Both the position numbers and the translations under genes were made by a program. A DNA stretch of 64,000 nucleotides from Planctomycetales bacterium 10988 (lineage in GTDB: Bacteria > Planctomycetota > Planctomycetia > Pirellulales > Pb10988), in contig CP043547.1 in assembly GCA_009664345.1 (NCBI GenBank), positions 1,488,001 through 1,552,000 on the forward strand, in the 5' to 3' direction. How positions within the stretch are numbered: position 1 is the first letter of the stretch; every line of letters begins with the position of its first letter. This document shows, in pieces, positions 2,711 through 10,051 of the stretch. The notes below the pieces were generated by a model. The model ran no database searches, had not been told where the DNA came from, and saw only the letters and a program-made list of their open reading frames with translations.

Positions 2711-4180
2711 ATGGCCACCTCGACCAATTATACTTTTCTGGGAATGACACAGAGCCTCTGTCCGGAAACCCTCAAGCTGGTGCAAGTGAAGATTATTGAA
2801 CGTGAGGGGAGAGTCTACTTCCGTAAGCCTACGCCTTCGGGAGACTATCGTGAAGACCTTGTTTGTTCCGATGTACGCTATTTCGATCAATTGGAATATT
2901 GTGTTCCTTCGCAGCAACCCGTGAAAAAAGGGGCTGATCCCGAAAAAGGATGCCCTTATGATTGTGGACTTTGCACCGAACACGAACAACACACTTGCGT
3001 CGGACTGCTTGAGATTACTTCGAATTGTAATTTAAAATGCCCGATGTGTTTTGCGAGTAGTGGTCCCGGCGGGAAACATCTGACACTTGAAGAGTGTCAG
3101 AAAGCGATTGATCGATTGGTAGAAGTTGAAAAACAACCAGAAGTTTTACAACTCTCCGGGGGTGAGCCTACCATCCATCCGGAAATTGAAGTCATCCTAG
3201 AATATGCTTATCAGCAGCCCATCGATTTGGTGATGATCAATACTAATGGAATTCGGCTGGCCAAGGATGAAGCCTTTGTAGAACGATTGGCTCATTATAA
3301 AGATCGCTTGGAAATTTATTTACAATTTGATGGCTTTAAAGATTCAACCTCCCTAGAATTGCGTGGAGAATCGCTCGTTCATTTAAAAGAAAAAGCAATC
3401 GAGCTTTGTGGTAAACATGGATTGCGAGTGACCCTTGTTTGTACTTTGCAAAGTGAGGTCAATGAAGACGAAATCGGGGCCATTGTCAATTATGGACTCG
3501 CCCGGCCTTGGATTACTAGTGTCAGTTTTCAACCAGCGACCTATTCCGGGAGGCATGTCCTGCCGGAAACGTTAGAAAAACGAATTACCTTTCCCGATGT
3601 TGTCAAAGGAATTGTAGAACAAACGGATGGAATCTTCACCGAAGAAGATTTTATGCCACTTCCCTGTGCTCATCCGAATTGTCATACGATTACCTATGCT
3701 TACCGTTCCGAGGGAAAAGTTATTCCTTTGACTCGAATTGTAAATGCCAAAGAACATCCGGAACTGTTGGCAAATGGGATTACTTTCACGAAACCAAGGG
3801 TACGTCGCATGATCCAGCAGTATTTAGGAAACTTGGGGTGCTGTGGTCCGAATGGTTGCGAGCCTGCCGAAGAGAAGCCTTTGACTACTTTAAAAAGCGG
3901 CAAGAAAAATCTGACACTTCCGATTCTTGAATCTTCGAATAGTTCTCTTCAGGAAATGGGAACCAACTTTTTTGAACAAGCGCTTTCAGAAAAGTTAACA
4001 ACGAAAGATGTCTTCCGCATTACCATCACTTCGTTTTTAGATATGTATAATTTTGATATTCGCCGCTTGATGAAATGTTGTGTGCATCATGTTCTACCAA
4101 GTGGTCATATTATTCCCTTCTGTGCGTATAATGTTCTCTATCGTGAAGGCCATGTCGAATTCCCTGAGTTGATGCGATAA
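2711..4180 (+). CDS. Radical SAM enzyme of the Tes/MJ0619 (tetraether lipid synthase) family
   Basis: 489 residues. The radical SAM signature CNLKCPMC puts the SAM-cluster cysteines at C106, C110 and C113. Just before it is a second cysteine group, GCPYDCGLC...HTC (C81, C85, C88, C96), and near the C-terminus are NLGCCGPNGC and KCCVHHVLPSGH...PFC. This layout (N-terminal Cys cluster fused to the SAM motif, Cys-rich tail with CCVH...PFCAYN) is that of archaeal MJ0619/Tes, which joins lipid tails by C-C bonds; the family also includes enzymes proposed to methylate pterins. SD AGGGAG lies 9 nt before the ATG. The Lgt-like gene follows after 21 nt on the same strand, pointing to a lipid substrate. 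The bacterial substrate is unknown; a pterin or other methyl-transfer role remains possible. Confidence 0.85.
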   Translation: MATSTNYTFLGMTQSLCPETLKLVQVKIIEREGRVYFRKPTPSGDYREDLVCSDVRYFDQLEYCVPSQQPVKKGADPEKGCPYDCGLCTEHEQHTCVGLLEITSNCNLKCPMCFASSGPGGKHLTLEECQKAIDRLVEVEKQPEVLQLSGGEPTIHPEIEVILEYAYQQPIDLVMINTNGIRLAKDEAFVERLAHYKDRLEIYLQFDGFKDSTSLELRGESLVHLKEKAIELCGKHGLRVTLVCTLQSEVNEDEIGAIVNYGLARPWITSVSFQPATYSGRHVLPETLEKRITFPDVVKGIVEQTDGIFTEEDFMPLPCAHPNCHTITYAYRSEGKVIPLTRIVNAKEHPELLANGITFTKPRVRRMIQQYLGNLGCCGPNGCEPAEEKPLTTLKSGKKNLTLPILESSNSSLQEMGTNFFEQALSEKLTTKDVFRITITSFLDMYNFDIRRLMKCCVHHVLPSGHIIPFCAYNVLYREGHVEFPELMR

Positions 4181-4201
4181 ACTTTTATAAACAAGACTGA
4201 T

Positions 4202-4918
4202 ATGCTTTCAGCGATCTTTATGAGTTTGGCGATCGGGTCGGGTGTCTATTTATTGACACTTGATAAGACACCTTCGCGGCAAACTTTGATTGATAAATTC
4301 ACAGTTGGTCTCTGTGGCATTCTTGGAGCCACGTTAGGGGCAAAGTTACCCTTCGCGTTATGGGATTGGCCCGGACTGCTGGATGGGACGACTTGGTTTT
4401 CCAATGGGAAGACCATTATGCTCGGTTTGGTCGGCGGTTACTTCGGTGTTGAGTTCGCCAAGTGGATGCTGGAGATCAAGGAAAAGACAGGCGATCGTTA
4501 TGCCGTGCCGGTAGCGGTTTCGGTCTCGATTGGGCGATTAAGTTGTTTTTTTGGAGGGTGTTGTTATGGAACTCCGACCGATCTTCCTTGGGGAGTTATC
4601 TTTCATGATGGAATTTTGAGACATCCGACCCAAATTTATGAGTCCATTTTTCATGCCACCATGGCGATTCTGCTTGCCATTTTTCGACACTATGGTTGGT
4701 TTCGTCTTCAACTCTTTAAAATCTATTTACTTTGTTATTTCGTCTATCGCTTTATTTCGGAATTTATTCGTCCGGAACCGAAAGTTTTTCTTTCCTTGAC
4801 GGCCTATCAATGGGCATGTGTTTTCTTCACGCTGTTGTTTCTCTATTTATATTGGCATGATGAACAATTGAAAAACGGATCACTTTCATCTGCGAAGAGA
4901 GAAGCACTCTCAAGTTGA
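4202..4918 (+). CDS. Lgt-family (prolipoprotein diacylglyceryl transferase-like) membrane protein
   Basis: 238 residues with about seven hydrophobic segments. The core GRLSCFFGGCCYGTPTDLPWG followed by RHPTQIYE matches the conserved Lgt region that holds the phosphatidylglycerol-binding and catalytic residues. The family moves a diacylglyceryl group from phosphatidylglycerol to a lipoprotein cysteine in the inner membrane. This copy is short and has the Cys-Cys variant of the motif rather than the GN-x-x-NGE type of housekeeping Lgt, so it is probably a specialised paralogue that uses another acceptor or donor. It lies 21 nt after the Tes-like radical SAM gene and likely shares its transcript. 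The SD is weak; ATG 4223 is an alternative start. It ends 12 nt before the convergent MFS gene. Confidence 0.8.
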   Translation: MLSAIFMSLAIGSGVYLLTLDKTPSRQTLIDKFTVGLCGILGATLGAKLPFALWDWPGLLDGTTWFSNGKTIMLGLVGGYFGVEFAKWMLEIKEKTGDRYAVPVAVSVSIGRLSCFFGGCCYGTPTDLPWGVIFHDGILRHPTQIYESIFHATMAILLAIFRHYGWFRLQLFKIYLLCYFVYRFISEFIRPEPKVFLSLTAYQWACVFFTLLFLYLYWHDEQLKNGSLSSAKREALSS

Positions 4919-6291: not shown

Positions 6292-7365
6292 TTATTGTCC
6301 GGCGGCTTTGCGGGCCTCTTCCAACAATCGGCGGCGTTCCTCCAGTTTGCTTTCTCCAGCCAACGGCATTTGATCCTCCGCCGGGGCCGCTTCGCCCAGA
6401 TCAATGACTTGAATGCCTGACCAAAATACTGGATGGATCGGTAAAAGCTCGTCGTTCAAGCTCGGCACTTGTAGCCTTGGTTCCAGGATCGGGTCCAAGG
6501 GGTTTTGCCAAGAGAGCAAGACACTTCGACGCCAAGCCTCCGAGGTCGAGGAATAGGGCAATTCCTGCATCAGTTCGCGGAGCAGGTTGATCGTGTTTTG
6601 GCCACCCATTCGCCATCGCGAGATCGCCACGGTTTGGGTGCCTGACGCAAGCATGCCACTGATCGGAATGAAAAGATCGTTTCCAAGGAAGTTTCGCGAA
6701 TTGCCGGAAAGGCCGTCTTCCGCGGCTGTGTGATAGCCAGGCAAGACAATTGATTGCAGCCCATTCCAAGGGAGTTGAATCAGTCCATAAACCGAGTTGT
6801 CCACGGATTGATCGAGCGCGGGCATCAACTTTCCATCCAACTTCCCTTCCGACGGCGTGGCCAAGTCATCCAGGACGATCAATTGCTGAAAGAGTGAAGA
6901 GACGCAATCGAAACTTCCTGGAATCGTGCGATCCGTGGTAACCGGCAGAGAATCGGGAATGCTGTGGGAAAGATCGAAGTAAGCATCACTAGAAACGTGT
7001 GGCTCATCGGTGGGATGCAGTCTTCCGAGGCTCACCAACGTGATCGGTTGGCGGCTGCGTGATCGTCCATCGTGCATGATGCAACCAGCGTACGGAACGT
7101 AGCGGATGGGCGTTTGGGCGAGCCAGCTATCATCGAGATGTTGATCCTGTGCTCCAAGAACTTCAAAGGGAAAATACCACAGCATTCCGTCTGGAACGAT
7201 GACGAGTTCTTTCAAATTGTTCGGGCTTGAGATCGCCCCGGCTTGTCGAAAGAGGAGCGTGCGGAGTTCTTCGGCTTGCTTAATCCAGCCAGTATCATCA
7301 ATGGTTTTCTTTTGCACGGGCCGAGTGCTGTCCACCAGTCCCCAATCGCGGAAGACCCCCTTCAT
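6292..7365 (-). CDS. CHAT-domain half of a frameshifted TPR-CHAT protein
   Basis: 357 residues in this frame. It contains the CHAT (caspase-HetF-associated with TPRs) fold: KELVIVPDGMLWYFPFEVL, then SIVLPGYHTAAEDG...LASGTQTVAISRW. It overlaps the upstream TPR ORF by ATGA (7362-7365), but homology begins upstream of this ATG: the same frame reads LQISNPNSILAK just before it. This fits a single-base loss near 7399 (see the finding). The family catalytic His and Cys are not seen: the position normally 'SAC' reads 'PGY', and no H-G pair precedes it, so a protease role is unlikely. Alternatively the ATGA overlap couples two separate genes, but the split inside the CHAT domain argues against that. 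Confidence 0.75.
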   Translation of the reverse strand: MKGVFRDWGLVDSTRPVQKKTIDDTGWIKQAEELRTLLFRQAGAISSPNNLKELVIVPDGMLWYFPFEVLGAQDQHLDDSWLAQTPIRYVPYAGCIMHDGRSRSRQPITLVSLGRLHPTDEPHVSSDAYFDLSHSIPDSLPVTTDRTIPGSFDCVSSLFQQLIVLDDLATPSEGKLDGKLMPALDQSVDNSVYGLIQLPWNGLQSIVLPGYHTAAEDGLSGNSRNFLGNDLFIPISGMLASGTQTVAISRWRMGGQNTINLLRELMQELPYSSTSEAWRRSVLLSWQNPLDPILEPRLQVPSLNDELLPIHPVFWSGIQVIDLGEAAPAEDQMPLAGESKLEERRRLLEEARKAAGQ

Positions 7366-9395
7366 CTTGGCGAGAATGGAGTTCGGATTGCTGATCTGCA
7401 GACGATGATCTCTTCCCCGGTCAGGTAAAAGCCGTACAGTCGTCGGCTGGTGGAGAAAAAGATCAGGGCCGCTCGATCACTGCCGAGATATTGTTGCAAA
7501 GATTCGGTGGTTTGCTTCGGGGGGAAGGTAAGTTCCGCCGGCAAGCGCCGCAGTGACATGCGGTGCAGGAAGCTTTCTTGCAATTGGCTGGTTTGTCGAA
7601 GCTCGTTCAACAGCTGCTTTTGTTGATCGGTCGCATCGGCACTTGCAGGAAAGAACGGAACTTTTTCCAACGATTGTTGTAGGCCCGCCGATTGAGATTG
7701 CAAATTTTTATACTGTGGAAAAAGCACACTCAGGTCATTTCGCTGCAAAACGGCATTGTCGGAGAGGGCCGCTTCGGGGGCTTCCATCAACCACCGCATT
7801 GCTAGCAGTCGTCCGCCCAGCGGAAGCGTCGCGTAGAAGCGGTGGCGGCGGGCAAGGTCGGCGATTTCTAAAGCGGCCTCATTTTCCTTCCGACGTACCG
7901 CAATCTCGAACCAAAGCTCATAGGTAGAATGATGCGGCGAGACCATCACGGTCAATGATTCCAAAGGATCGATCAACCAATCCGAGGCTTGCGGGTCTCG
8001 CAGAACATTGGAGAGAATCGTAAATCCCTGTCGATCGGTGAGATTTCCGTTGGCGGCAAGATTTTCCGTCAGGACAATATGATTGAGCCAGAGCGAAGCC
8101 CCGCCTTGTTGCACCGTGAAGGCTTTCGCCAGGGAGGCATCGCCTTGTTGACTTTGATTCGAATAGTAGCGATAGAGGGCATCGACATAATAGAACCTTG
8201 CCCCAACGCGGCTTGTTTCCATGGAACGCGATTCGCGGGCGATGGCTTGCGTGGCATCGACAATCGCCTCTTCGGTGACGCCCGGCTCTCCGGCGAAGAG
8301 GGCCCCTTCGGCAACCAGGGAGGCCCAGGAAGCTTGCAAATGGTATTGTCGCTTCGTCGTGGACCACTTCCAAGCCGAGACCAGTTGCGGGAGCACGCCT
8401 TTTTCATTGGCTGCCAAGAAGGCAATCTGGGCAAATCTCAGAGCCTCTTCCGCTAAAACTCCATCACCGAACTGATAGGAGGAGTAGCTTGATTCCAAGA
8501 AGTAACCAGAAGCCGGTTGAAAATCGCCTTGCATTAGCTCTAAGCGGCCTAATTCAAACAGAGCAATCGCGGTCAAGTGATGGTCGAATTGTCCCGAAGC
8601 GATAATGCCTCGTTGGAAAAACGATTCGGCTTGGGAGTCATTTCCCAAAGAGGATTGGACGAGGCCGAGCCACAGATCTCCCCAGGCTCGTGACCAGCTA
8701 TTGGGCGAGGCGATCCCTTGTGTTAACGCGGCTCTTAGACGAAGGTTGAGATCATCATAAGGCCCCGTCGGTCCTAAAAGGTCGCGGCGGCGGCGAATCG
8801 AATGGGCAATACAACGGGCAATCTCCGGGGCATGGATCAACAGGCGTTGGGCCATTTGCACGGCTCCCCCACCACGTTTGAGCACATTATTGATCGCGTT
8901 GATGTCGCCTTCTTGGATTTGAAAGACTTTGGGATACGAGCCAAGGATCGGGTTCCGAGTCGATTGCCCCCAGGGAACCCGCGGCGTTTGCCCCGCACCA
9001 GCGACGCGAATGGCCGGAAATTGGACACTGACCATCCAATCTGGATAAGCAAGGTAAAGTTGCAAGGCGGCACTAAATTGCTGCATCGCCTCGCCGGATC
9101 GCCCGGTCTGATAATAGCATTCGCCCAGCATCGTATGGTAGCAAATCGAATCGAGCCATTTTCGCTGGCCGATTTTGCGTGCCCCAGCCAACTCATTCTG
9201 AAAGATCTTTCCCGCATCGACATAGTCACCATTGACAACTTGGGTGACTCCAGCGAAATAGCGGGCGCTGGGGAATTCTTTCGTCTGGGCAAAAGCGGTA
9301 GGAGTCGAAAGGAGGGTCGTTAGCAAAATGCCGAGACCCCAAGAAAAATAATTTCGATGGCCCAAAGCTCCTCGGTTGAGAAGTTGCCTGCTCAT
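7362..9395 (-). CDS. TPR-repeat secreted protein, N-terminal part of frameshifted TPR-CHAT protein
   Basis: Start chosen at ATG 9395 (AGGGAG 8 nt upstream) rather than the upstream start at 9485; this gives a clean signal peptide of about 37 residues ending at AFAQ. The mature region is helical with TPR-like pairs (GECYYQTGRSGEAMQQFSAAL; ALFELGRLELMQGDFQPASGYFLES). The last 35 residues (RAALIFFSTSRRLYGFYLTGEEIIV) are the first strands of a CHAT domain, after which the frame is lost and the ORF ends in CRSAIRTPFSPR. The CHAT remainder continues in the next frame. The intact protein would have been about 1,040 residues, exported across the inner membrane. Function unknown. Confidence 0.75.
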   Translation of the reverse strand: MSRQLLNRGALGHRNYFSWGLGILLTTLLSTPTAFAQTKEFPSARYFAGVTQVVNGDYVDAGKIFQNELAGARKIGQRKWLDSICYHTMLGECYYQTGRSGEAMQQFSAALQLYLAYPDWMVSVQFPAIRVAGAGQTPRVPWGQSTRNPILGSYPKVFQIQEGDINAINNVLKRGGGAVQMAQRLLIHAPEIARCIAHSIRRRRDLLGPTGPYDDLNLRLRAALTQGIASPNSWSRAWGDLWLGLVQSSLGNDSQAESFFQRGIIASGQFDHHLTAIALFELGRLELMQGDFQPASGYFLESSYSSYQFGDGVLAEEALRFAQIAFLAANEKGVLPQLVSAWKWSTTKRQYHLQASWASLVAEGALFAGEPGVTEEAIVDATQAIARESRSMETSRVGARFYYVDALYRYYSNQSQQGDASLAKAFTVQQGGASLWLNHIVLTENLAANGNLTDRQGFTILSNVLRDPQASDWLIDPLESLTVMVSPHHSTYELWFEIAVRRKENEAALEIADLARRHRFYATLPLGGRLLAMRWLMEAPEAALSDNAVLQRNDLSVLFPQYKNLQSQSAGLQQSLEKVPFFPASADATDQQKQLLNELRQTSQLQESFLHRMSLRRLPAELTFPPKQTTESLQQYLGSDRAALIFFSTSRRLYGFYLTGEEIIVCRSAIRTPFSPR

Positions 9396-10051
9396 TGTGT
9401 TCTCCCTGCCACAGCCCTGGTCAACATTGTTTTCAAGGAGCAAAAAGACTTCCGTGGCGAAGTTCCGACAGGTTGAAACTCTCAAGTGGCTAGCATTCGA
9501 ATGCGAAACAGAATGCCACTGAGTGAAAGGTTTTGCCAGTACTTCTGAGAAAAGTCCCTTTACGCCTCTATTTTAAGTAACGGAAATCCGATCCATCTAT
9601 CTACAAGGTCTTTAACGTTCGATCGAACATTGAAGAGATACTCTTTAGTGTAGTGCCTTTTCAAGCCCGCTTCTAGAATCTTTTATGTGGCTCGGACAAA
9701 ACCTCCTAATTTGAAACAAAATCACTTGCCTTTGAGAGTTCTAGAAAATCTTCGATTCGTTTTGTCTGGGATTTTGTTGAAAAACCCGCTTTCGCCCAAG
9801 GTCTCAGGTAGGAATCTGGACCAATCAGACATCTCTTTGAAATCCGACTAAGGAATTGCGGTCGTTCGGACGATAACCTTTGTGACGATTGAATCATATC
9901 AAACTATTTTGAGTCTGTGGACCGAACTCGTCGAAAGGCACCCAACGAAGGTGTTCTCAATCTCTGGCAGTTTTGGTTCTCAGCTCGATATCGATCGGCT
10001 CTGTTGAACCACCAGCTAGCCAAGAAAGTCCAAGCTAGGAGCGTTAAGTCG
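9396..10051. other. Intergenic region between divergent genes, with a palindrome
   Basis: 656 bp between the TPR-CHAT gene (minus) and the small lipoprotein gene (plus). It should hold both promoters. The one clear structure is GTTCGATCGAAC at 9617-9628, a perfect 12-bp palindrome flanked by AA and TT that extend it to 18 bp with one mismatch pair. It is a candidate regulator site. ORFs in the region have no credible ribosome site or composition. Confidence 0.5.

Follow-up and report, generated by a model that had tools for sequence, protein, structure and literature searches.

Does a radical SAM gene that lies beside a gene for an Lgt-family transferase in a planctomycete form a lipid-modifying system with it, and what would such a system modify? 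The two genes occur in the window, which is the whole stretch of 64,000 nucleotides of Planctomycetales bacterium 10988 DNA that was analysed. An earlier note on this DNA had compared the radical SAM protein with MJ0619/Tes and had suggested that the pair could build membrane-spanning or modified lipids, or lipidate a special protein. From sequence comparison, we tentatively read the pair as a conserved lipid-modification module that may best be understood as a dedicated protein-lipidation system.

Organization of the gene pair

The radical SAM protein (489 aa) is encoded at 2711..4180 on the forward strand and was assigned to the Lgt-partner clade of the MJ0619/Tes superfamily by Pfam, NCBIfam, PDB search and trees. 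It is followed on the same strand, at 4202..4918, by the gene for an Lgt-fold integral membrane partner of 238 aa, assigned by PF01790 and profile alignment. The ORF list gave a gap of 21 nt between the radical SAM stop codon and the start of the Lgt-fold gene, just as the earlier note had placed the two frames. No terminator-like site was found between the two genes, although the scans for promoters and terminators performed no better than chance. The pair is isolated in the window: a long opposite-strand gene upstream, AsmA-like by eye and without a Pfam match, runs away from it, and the downstream MFS transporter gene is convergent. The MFS gene adjoins a possible peptidase/TPR pair on the reverse strand (6292-9485), in which a CHAT-domain gene (6292-7365) overlaps a TPR gene (7362-9485).

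Family and residues of the radical SAM protein

The radical SAM protein matched PF04055 (72.6 bits) and PF23545, the MJ0619-type N-terminal zinc-ribbon family (32.3 bits against a cut-off of 27), and the PDB search returned GDGT-MAS (7TOL/7TOM) as its closest solved relative (E 1.3e-74). Its score on the Tes model NF045702 was 295 bits, which was lower than the cut-off of 450 bits; a thaumarchaeal Tes scored 698 bits on this model. The best NCBIfam score was obtained with the TrsS model NF045646 (343 bits), yet it was under the cut-off of that model (490 bits).

Residues were mapped on GDGT-MAS using the MJ0619 sequence from the PDB-search alignment and the residue roles given in PMC9433317. 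The MJ0619 cysteine layout that the earlier note had recognized was present at the radical SAM motif, the N-cluster and the C-terminal cysteines, and was broken at the rubredoxin-type site; all of these features are on the forward strand. The motif CX3CX2C (C106, C110, C113) was located at 3026..3049 by Pfam and alignment. The N-terminal auxiliary [4Fe-4S] ligands C81, C85 and C88 (2951..2983) aligned with C73/C77/C80 of GDGT-MAS, and H91 is the likely counterpart of its His ligand. The C-terminal motif MKCCVHH...FCAYN (4070..4129) aligned so as to give C456 and C471 as probable cluster ligands and C457 as an invariant residue, and the segment at 3665..3682 contains C319, invariant in the alignments made, and C324, a probable C-cluster ligand lost in many relatives. 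C324, C456, C457 and C471 are all present in the window protein; the ligand assignment was made from joint loss and not from coordinates. At the rubredoxin-type site (2759..2842), where the GDGT-MAS ligands are C9/C12/C33/H36 (PMC9433317), C17 is kept and C20, C41 and H44 are replaced by T, T and G. The other aligned rows keep this site, a few of them with C for H, and the loss of three of the four ligands was unique to the window copy among the rows compared.

Met439 and Tyr459 of Tes are invariant in a thousand archaeal homologues (PMC9433317). In the window protein these positions are taken by T440 and H460. The Met of MKCC and the Tyr of FCAY had been considered as their equivalents and were ruled out by residue numbering. 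The probable C-cluster cysteines were lost jointly in 11 planctomycete relatives and in nearly all type-B relatives (type B being all clade members outside the planctomycete clade), most of which retain the Lgt partner. Because of this concerted loss, the module cannot depend in general on the cluster-bound intermediate of GDGT-MAS, though the window copy keeps the cysteines.

Phylogeny of the radical SAM clade

A total of 84,980 species genomes were scanned and the best 80 loci were used, so the sample leans toward close relatives. The 97-row tree contained three groups: archaeal Tes; a TrsS-like group, mostly from Chloroflexota and Acidobacteriota; and a 70-row group with the window protein. 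In this tree, the 70-row group covered Planctomycetota, Bacteroidota, Bacillota, Pseudomonadota, Cyanobacteriota, Melainabacteria and Ktedonosporobacter (Chloroflexota), and the partner across this group was an Lgt-like gene. Each of the three groups was one side of a branch in a 39-row subset tree, and with this subset a constraint joining the window protein to archaeal Tes was rejected (p-AU 1.3e-5). A branch with support 94-97 set off the Lgt-paired members, which had no methyltransferase partner. The earlier note had proposed a phylogeny relative to Tes and had named a grouping with pterin methylases as refutation. The tree, which contained the archaeal Tes, TrsS-like and Lgt-partner groups, placed the window protein outside archaeal Tes; the pterin-methylase point is moot because MJ0619 itself was once supposed to be a pterin methylase, an activity that could not be corroborated (PMC9433317).

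Judged by its score under the Tes cut-off, the rejected archaeal Tes grouping, the replacement of Met439 and Tyr459 and the loss of three rubredoxin ligands in this copy, the radical SAM protein is not Tes. The membrane-spanning lipids of the earlier note could be made by a Tes-type reaction, with the radical SAM enzyme linking two tails end to end and the Lgt-like protein delivering or remodelling lipids. Such a reaction would agree with GDGT-MAS being the nearest solved structure, with the radical SAM, N-cluster and C-terminal cysteines kept in the window copy, and with the proposal that bacterial Tes homologues, including planctomycete ones, are brGDGT makers (PMC8941075; PMC11868695). However, the tree, the bit score and the loss of the probable C-cluster cysteines in many Lgt-paired relatives all argue against it, as do the changes at Met439 and Tyr459, although the GDGT-MAS variants Y459F/L and M439A are still active (PMC9433317). 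We consider this reading very unlikely, and the idea of membrane-spanning lipid synthesis was not upheld.

The radical SAM protein might alternatively be a TrsS-like enzyme of small-molecule metabolism, with the Lgt-like protein merely an accessory. Its best NCBIfam score was for TrsS and the sister clade is paired with a methyltransferase, but the score does not reach 490 bits and the well-supported branch of Lgt-paired members contains no methyltransferase partner, which makes this alternative most improbable. At 18 loci outside the 70-row group, a DVU_1556/ArsM-like methyltransferase gene was directly downstream of the radical SAM gene and on the same strand (18/18; for example L061:2088-2885, L063:9386-10183, L092:9479-10291 and others). 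The methyltransferase-paired sister clade includes Thaumarchaeota that also carry true Tes.

The Lgt-like partner

The Lgt-like protein matched PF01790 (LGT) with 99.2 bits against a Pfam cut-off of 24.9, and scored 85 bits on the NCBIfam Lgt equivalog, below its cut-off of 334. A PDB search with the single sequence gave no match; a profile of 30 Lgt-like members found E. coli Lgt (5AZB, E 9.7e-17). Three conserved segments were identified on the forward strand by alignment. In the Lgt signature GRLSCFFGGCCYG (4532..4570), R112 and G123 correspond to E. coli R143 and G154, and C115 and C120 stand in place of N146 and E151 (PMC4728403). Y146 and E147 of RHPTQIYE (4619..4642) correspond to Y201 and E202. 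In YFVYRFISEFIR (4736..4771), Y179, R183, E187 and R190 correspond to Y235, R239, E243 and R246, all of them essential or almost essential in the E. coli enzyme (PMC4728403). The HGGL histidine (H103), N146 and E151 have no equivalents in the Lgt-like protein; E. coli Lgt mutants at H103 and E151 are inactive (PMC4728403). Since R143, Y235, R239, E243, R246, E202 and G154 are kept but H103, N146 and E151 are changed, the donor-handling half of the site is retained and the half proposed for the lipobox peptide is altered.

The host also encodes a separate, longer Lgt, L119 (G000:C1:1452404-1453429, reverse strand), which shares the GRxxCFxxGCCYG motif of the Lgt-like partner and is likewise without the HGGL histidine and Asn146. 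The description of the partner as a short, non-canonical Lgt was correct in comparison with E. coli, but its motif does not distinguish it from the host's own longer enzyme. In L119 and L150, planctomycete Lgts of housekeeping type, Y or F occupies the position of the HGGL histidine and GRIGCFLNGCCYG is found where E. coli has GRLGNFINGELWG. As aligned, L119 and L150 have naturally lost residues that are essential in E. coli.

Conservation of the pair

Of 57 genomes from the window's order, 16 had the radical SAM gene; the identical 16 also had the Lgt-like gene (scoring 187 bits or more), and in two of them the genes are unlinked. Around a Flavobacterium, both genes were present in the identical 5 of 40 Bacteroidota genomes, where the Lgt scored at least 263 bits and the next best match 83. 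Within 4.5 kb on the same strand, the two genes were linked at 27 of 36 loci in planctomycetes and at 35 of the 37 type-B loci; both unlinked type-B exceptions were at contig ends. The co-occurrence and linkage counts take no account of kinship. The Lgt gene comes after the radical SAM gene in planctomycetes and before it in Bacteroidota and Bacillota, which means that the order changed but the pairing stayed. The clade in which the pair is adjacent on one strand at most loci covers at least seven bacterial phyla. Part of the loci come from metagenome-assembled genomes; isolates with the pair include Lacipirellula limnantheis, Botrimarina colliarenosi, Brevibacillus daliensis, Hymenobacter, Tenacibaculum and Ktedonosporobacter. 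The data showed that the two genes are paired far above chance, and are inherited and lost together. This co-occurrence and adjacency across phyla bear out the proposal that the two genes work together, and by homology both families are lipid enzymes, as had been supposed.

In GC-rich planctomycetes, several genes that looked like conserved neighbours proved to be false, overlapping ORFs and were dropped. Two genomes hold what look like decayed loci (L175:3261-3638 and L174:2264-3316): in G043 the Lgt is truncated and a full-length radical SAM gene is missing, and in G004 a zinc-ribbon gene is followed by an Lgt fragment. At the planctomycete locus L072:7896-12491, a radical SAM gene of Bacteroidota type and an Lgt gene of planctomycete type flank three tandem zinc-ribbon Cys-tailed proteins; by gene type, the partners are swapped and the module is whole.

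Cys-tailed small membrane proteins

Paired loci mostly contained one to three tandem genes for small membrane proteins of 55 to 240 residues with two to four helices. These proteins are very variable, gave no match in Pfam or NCBIfam, and have a single invariant cysteine at the C-terminal end of the last helix, the only invariant column in an alignment of 39 of them. Their tails read ..LIGLGICGSMM in Flavobacteriaceae, ..LIGFGACSGI in Hymenobacter and ..VNAACFGIV in Brevibacillus, and the planctomycete proteins are of a zinc-ribbon form ending in ..AFFVYCITV. These Cys-tailed proteins are a new, third component of the paired loci.

The distribution of the small proteins was determined with one mechanical definition. 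Same-strand Cys-tailed proteins were found at 30 of 35 Lgt-linked type-B loci (46 proteins, with 1 on the opposite strand) and at 3 of 3 Lgt-linked loci of the TrsS-like group. The same definition detected them at 1 of 17 methyltransferase-paired loci and in 8 of 164 control windows. Four further Bacteroidota loci fetched afterwards all had them (4/4). Only 7 of 27 planctomycete loci were caught by the definition, since in many planctomycete forms the cysteine is followed by a further helix; with a profile search, the zinc-ribbon form was found in about 13 of the 16 planctomycete genomes carrying the pair. A fourth membrane protein of about 230 aa (RQWFIVxRWQEYEGEARANLLRI), seen in planctomycetes only and without a Pfam match, lies beside the zinc-ribbon proteins on the same strand (11/11; L002:3572-4258, L043:6286-7053, L044:6614-7333, L176:3135-3821 and others) and was not found in the genome of the window.

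Ahead of the last helix there were 2.97 K and R residues per protein, compared with 0.13 beyond the cysteine; by the positive-inside rule this places the cysteine outside, so that it is probably periplasmic. The residue at -1 from this cysteine does not follow a strict lipobox. An ORF scan, profiles A3, A4 and A7 and a zinc-ribbon DNA pattern turned up no convincing small protein, of one known type or the other, in the window or in its own genome. Alphaproteobacterial loci and L081 also hold the pair alone. The substrate of the window genome is either unlinked, too diverged to detect, or absent.

Proposed function

Between the options of the earlier note, the Cys-tailed proteins at most paired loci favour lipidation of a special protein. 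In such a system, the Lgt-like enzyme, which keeps the phosphatidylglycerol-handling residues, would transfer a glyceryl-lipid group to the cysteine of a small protein, and this acceptor would be positioned like a lipobox cysteine, at the outer end of an N-in/C-out helix. The radical SAM enzyme would abstract hydrogen from the lipid chain or the lipidated protein and then modify or cross-link it; the solved member of its family, GDGT-MAS, binds lipids in a hydrophobic tunnel (PMC9433317). Co-occurrence, adjacency, the Cys-tailed third component and the equivalents of Lgt R143, E202, Y235, R239, E243 and R246 speak for protein lipidation. There is also a precedent, as an Lgt-like enzyme has been proposed to act on the invariant cysteine of MYXO-CTERM proteins, which have no lipobox (PMC11980579). 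On the other side are the failure to find a small protein in the window genome, the other loci that carry the pair alone, the absence of the HGGL histidine, Asn146 and Glu151, and the -1 position of the cysteine. A fuller version, in which a three-part system of at least seven phyla has the Lgt paralogue lipidate the C-terminal transmembrane cysteine of tandem small proteins and the Tes-related radical SAM enzyme modify or cross-link the chain, giving a radical-modified lipid, is possible, though on the doubtful side.

The small proteins could instead be scaffolds or regulators and not substrates. The radical SAM enzyme might also be a protein maturase that acts directly on them, for instance at the cysteine or a residue next to it, with the Lgt-like protein anchoring or presenting them. 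Variable small proteins that share one invariant cysteine and are encoded in tandem next to a radical SAM gene are reminiscent of a precursor-maturase arrangement, and they track the Lgt-linked and not the methyltransferase-linked loci. However, the cysteine is predicted to be periplasmic and the radical SAM enzyme cytoplasmic, the solved family member binds lipids (PMC9433317), and neither Pfam nor NCBIfam found a precursor-recognition domain in the radical SAM protein. We regard direct maturation as rather unlikely.

Under the protein-lipidation reading, the radical SAM, Lgt-like and Cys-tailed proteins together suggest an undescribed mechanism by which membrane proteins acquire lipid, and if the reading is true this would be a new protein lipidation route without a signal-peptide lipobox. 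The open-access literature yielded no relevant paper joining a radical SAM enzyme and a diacylglyceryl transferase, and none adding a small membrane protein, an absence that is not proof. The presence of Tes homologues in bacteria has been taken to indicate membrane-spanning brGDGT lipids, the basis of climate proxies. Members of the Lgt-partner clade, which include proteins of planctomycetes, flavobacteria, Hymenobacter and Brevibacillus, go together with an Lgt paralogue and small Cys-tailed membrane proteins, so a BLAST match to Tes should not imply tetraether capacity. The isolates Lacipirellula limnantheis, Ktedonosporobacter rubrisoli and Tenacibaculum discolor are organisms for a direct test.

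Comparison with known systems

Tes/GDGT-MAS (MJ0619; 7TOL, 7TOM; NF045702) is of the same fold family along the whole length of the window protein and shares the radical SAM and N-cluster ligands and the C-terminal cysteines of the window copy. Unlike Tes, the window protein belongs to a separate clade, which is bacterial, has an Lgt-fold partner and has lost the probable C-cluster cysteines in many members; the window protein itself is below the Tes cut-off, has lost the rubredoxin site and carries T and H at Met439 and Tyr459. The TrsS radical SAM (seleno)protein family (NF045646) gave the top NCBIfam score and is the nearest neighbouring clade, but the window protein is under its cut-off and has an Lgt-like partner, whereas the sister clade has a methyltransferase.

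MYXO-CTERM/myxosortase proteins (PMC11980579) likewise have an invariant cysteine next to a C-terminal helix that is predicted to be lipidated by an Lgt-like enzyme. In MYXO-CTERM the order is cysteine, helix, arginine-rich tail, whereas in the small proteins described here the cysteine ends the helix and there is no basic tail; the paired loci also include a radical SAM enzyme, and a sorting protease was not recognised beside the pair. E. coli Lgt (5AZB, 5AZC; PF01790) belongs to the same fold family by profile and has equivalents of R143, E202, Y235, R239, E243, R246 and G154 in the Lgt-like partner. The partner differs from it in being shorter, in the absent HGGL histidine and the changes of N146 and E151 to C, and in being a paralogue in a host with a separate, longer Lgt. 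Its probable acceptor is a C-terminal transmembrane cysteine, in contrast with the lipobox signal peptide of E. coli Lgt.
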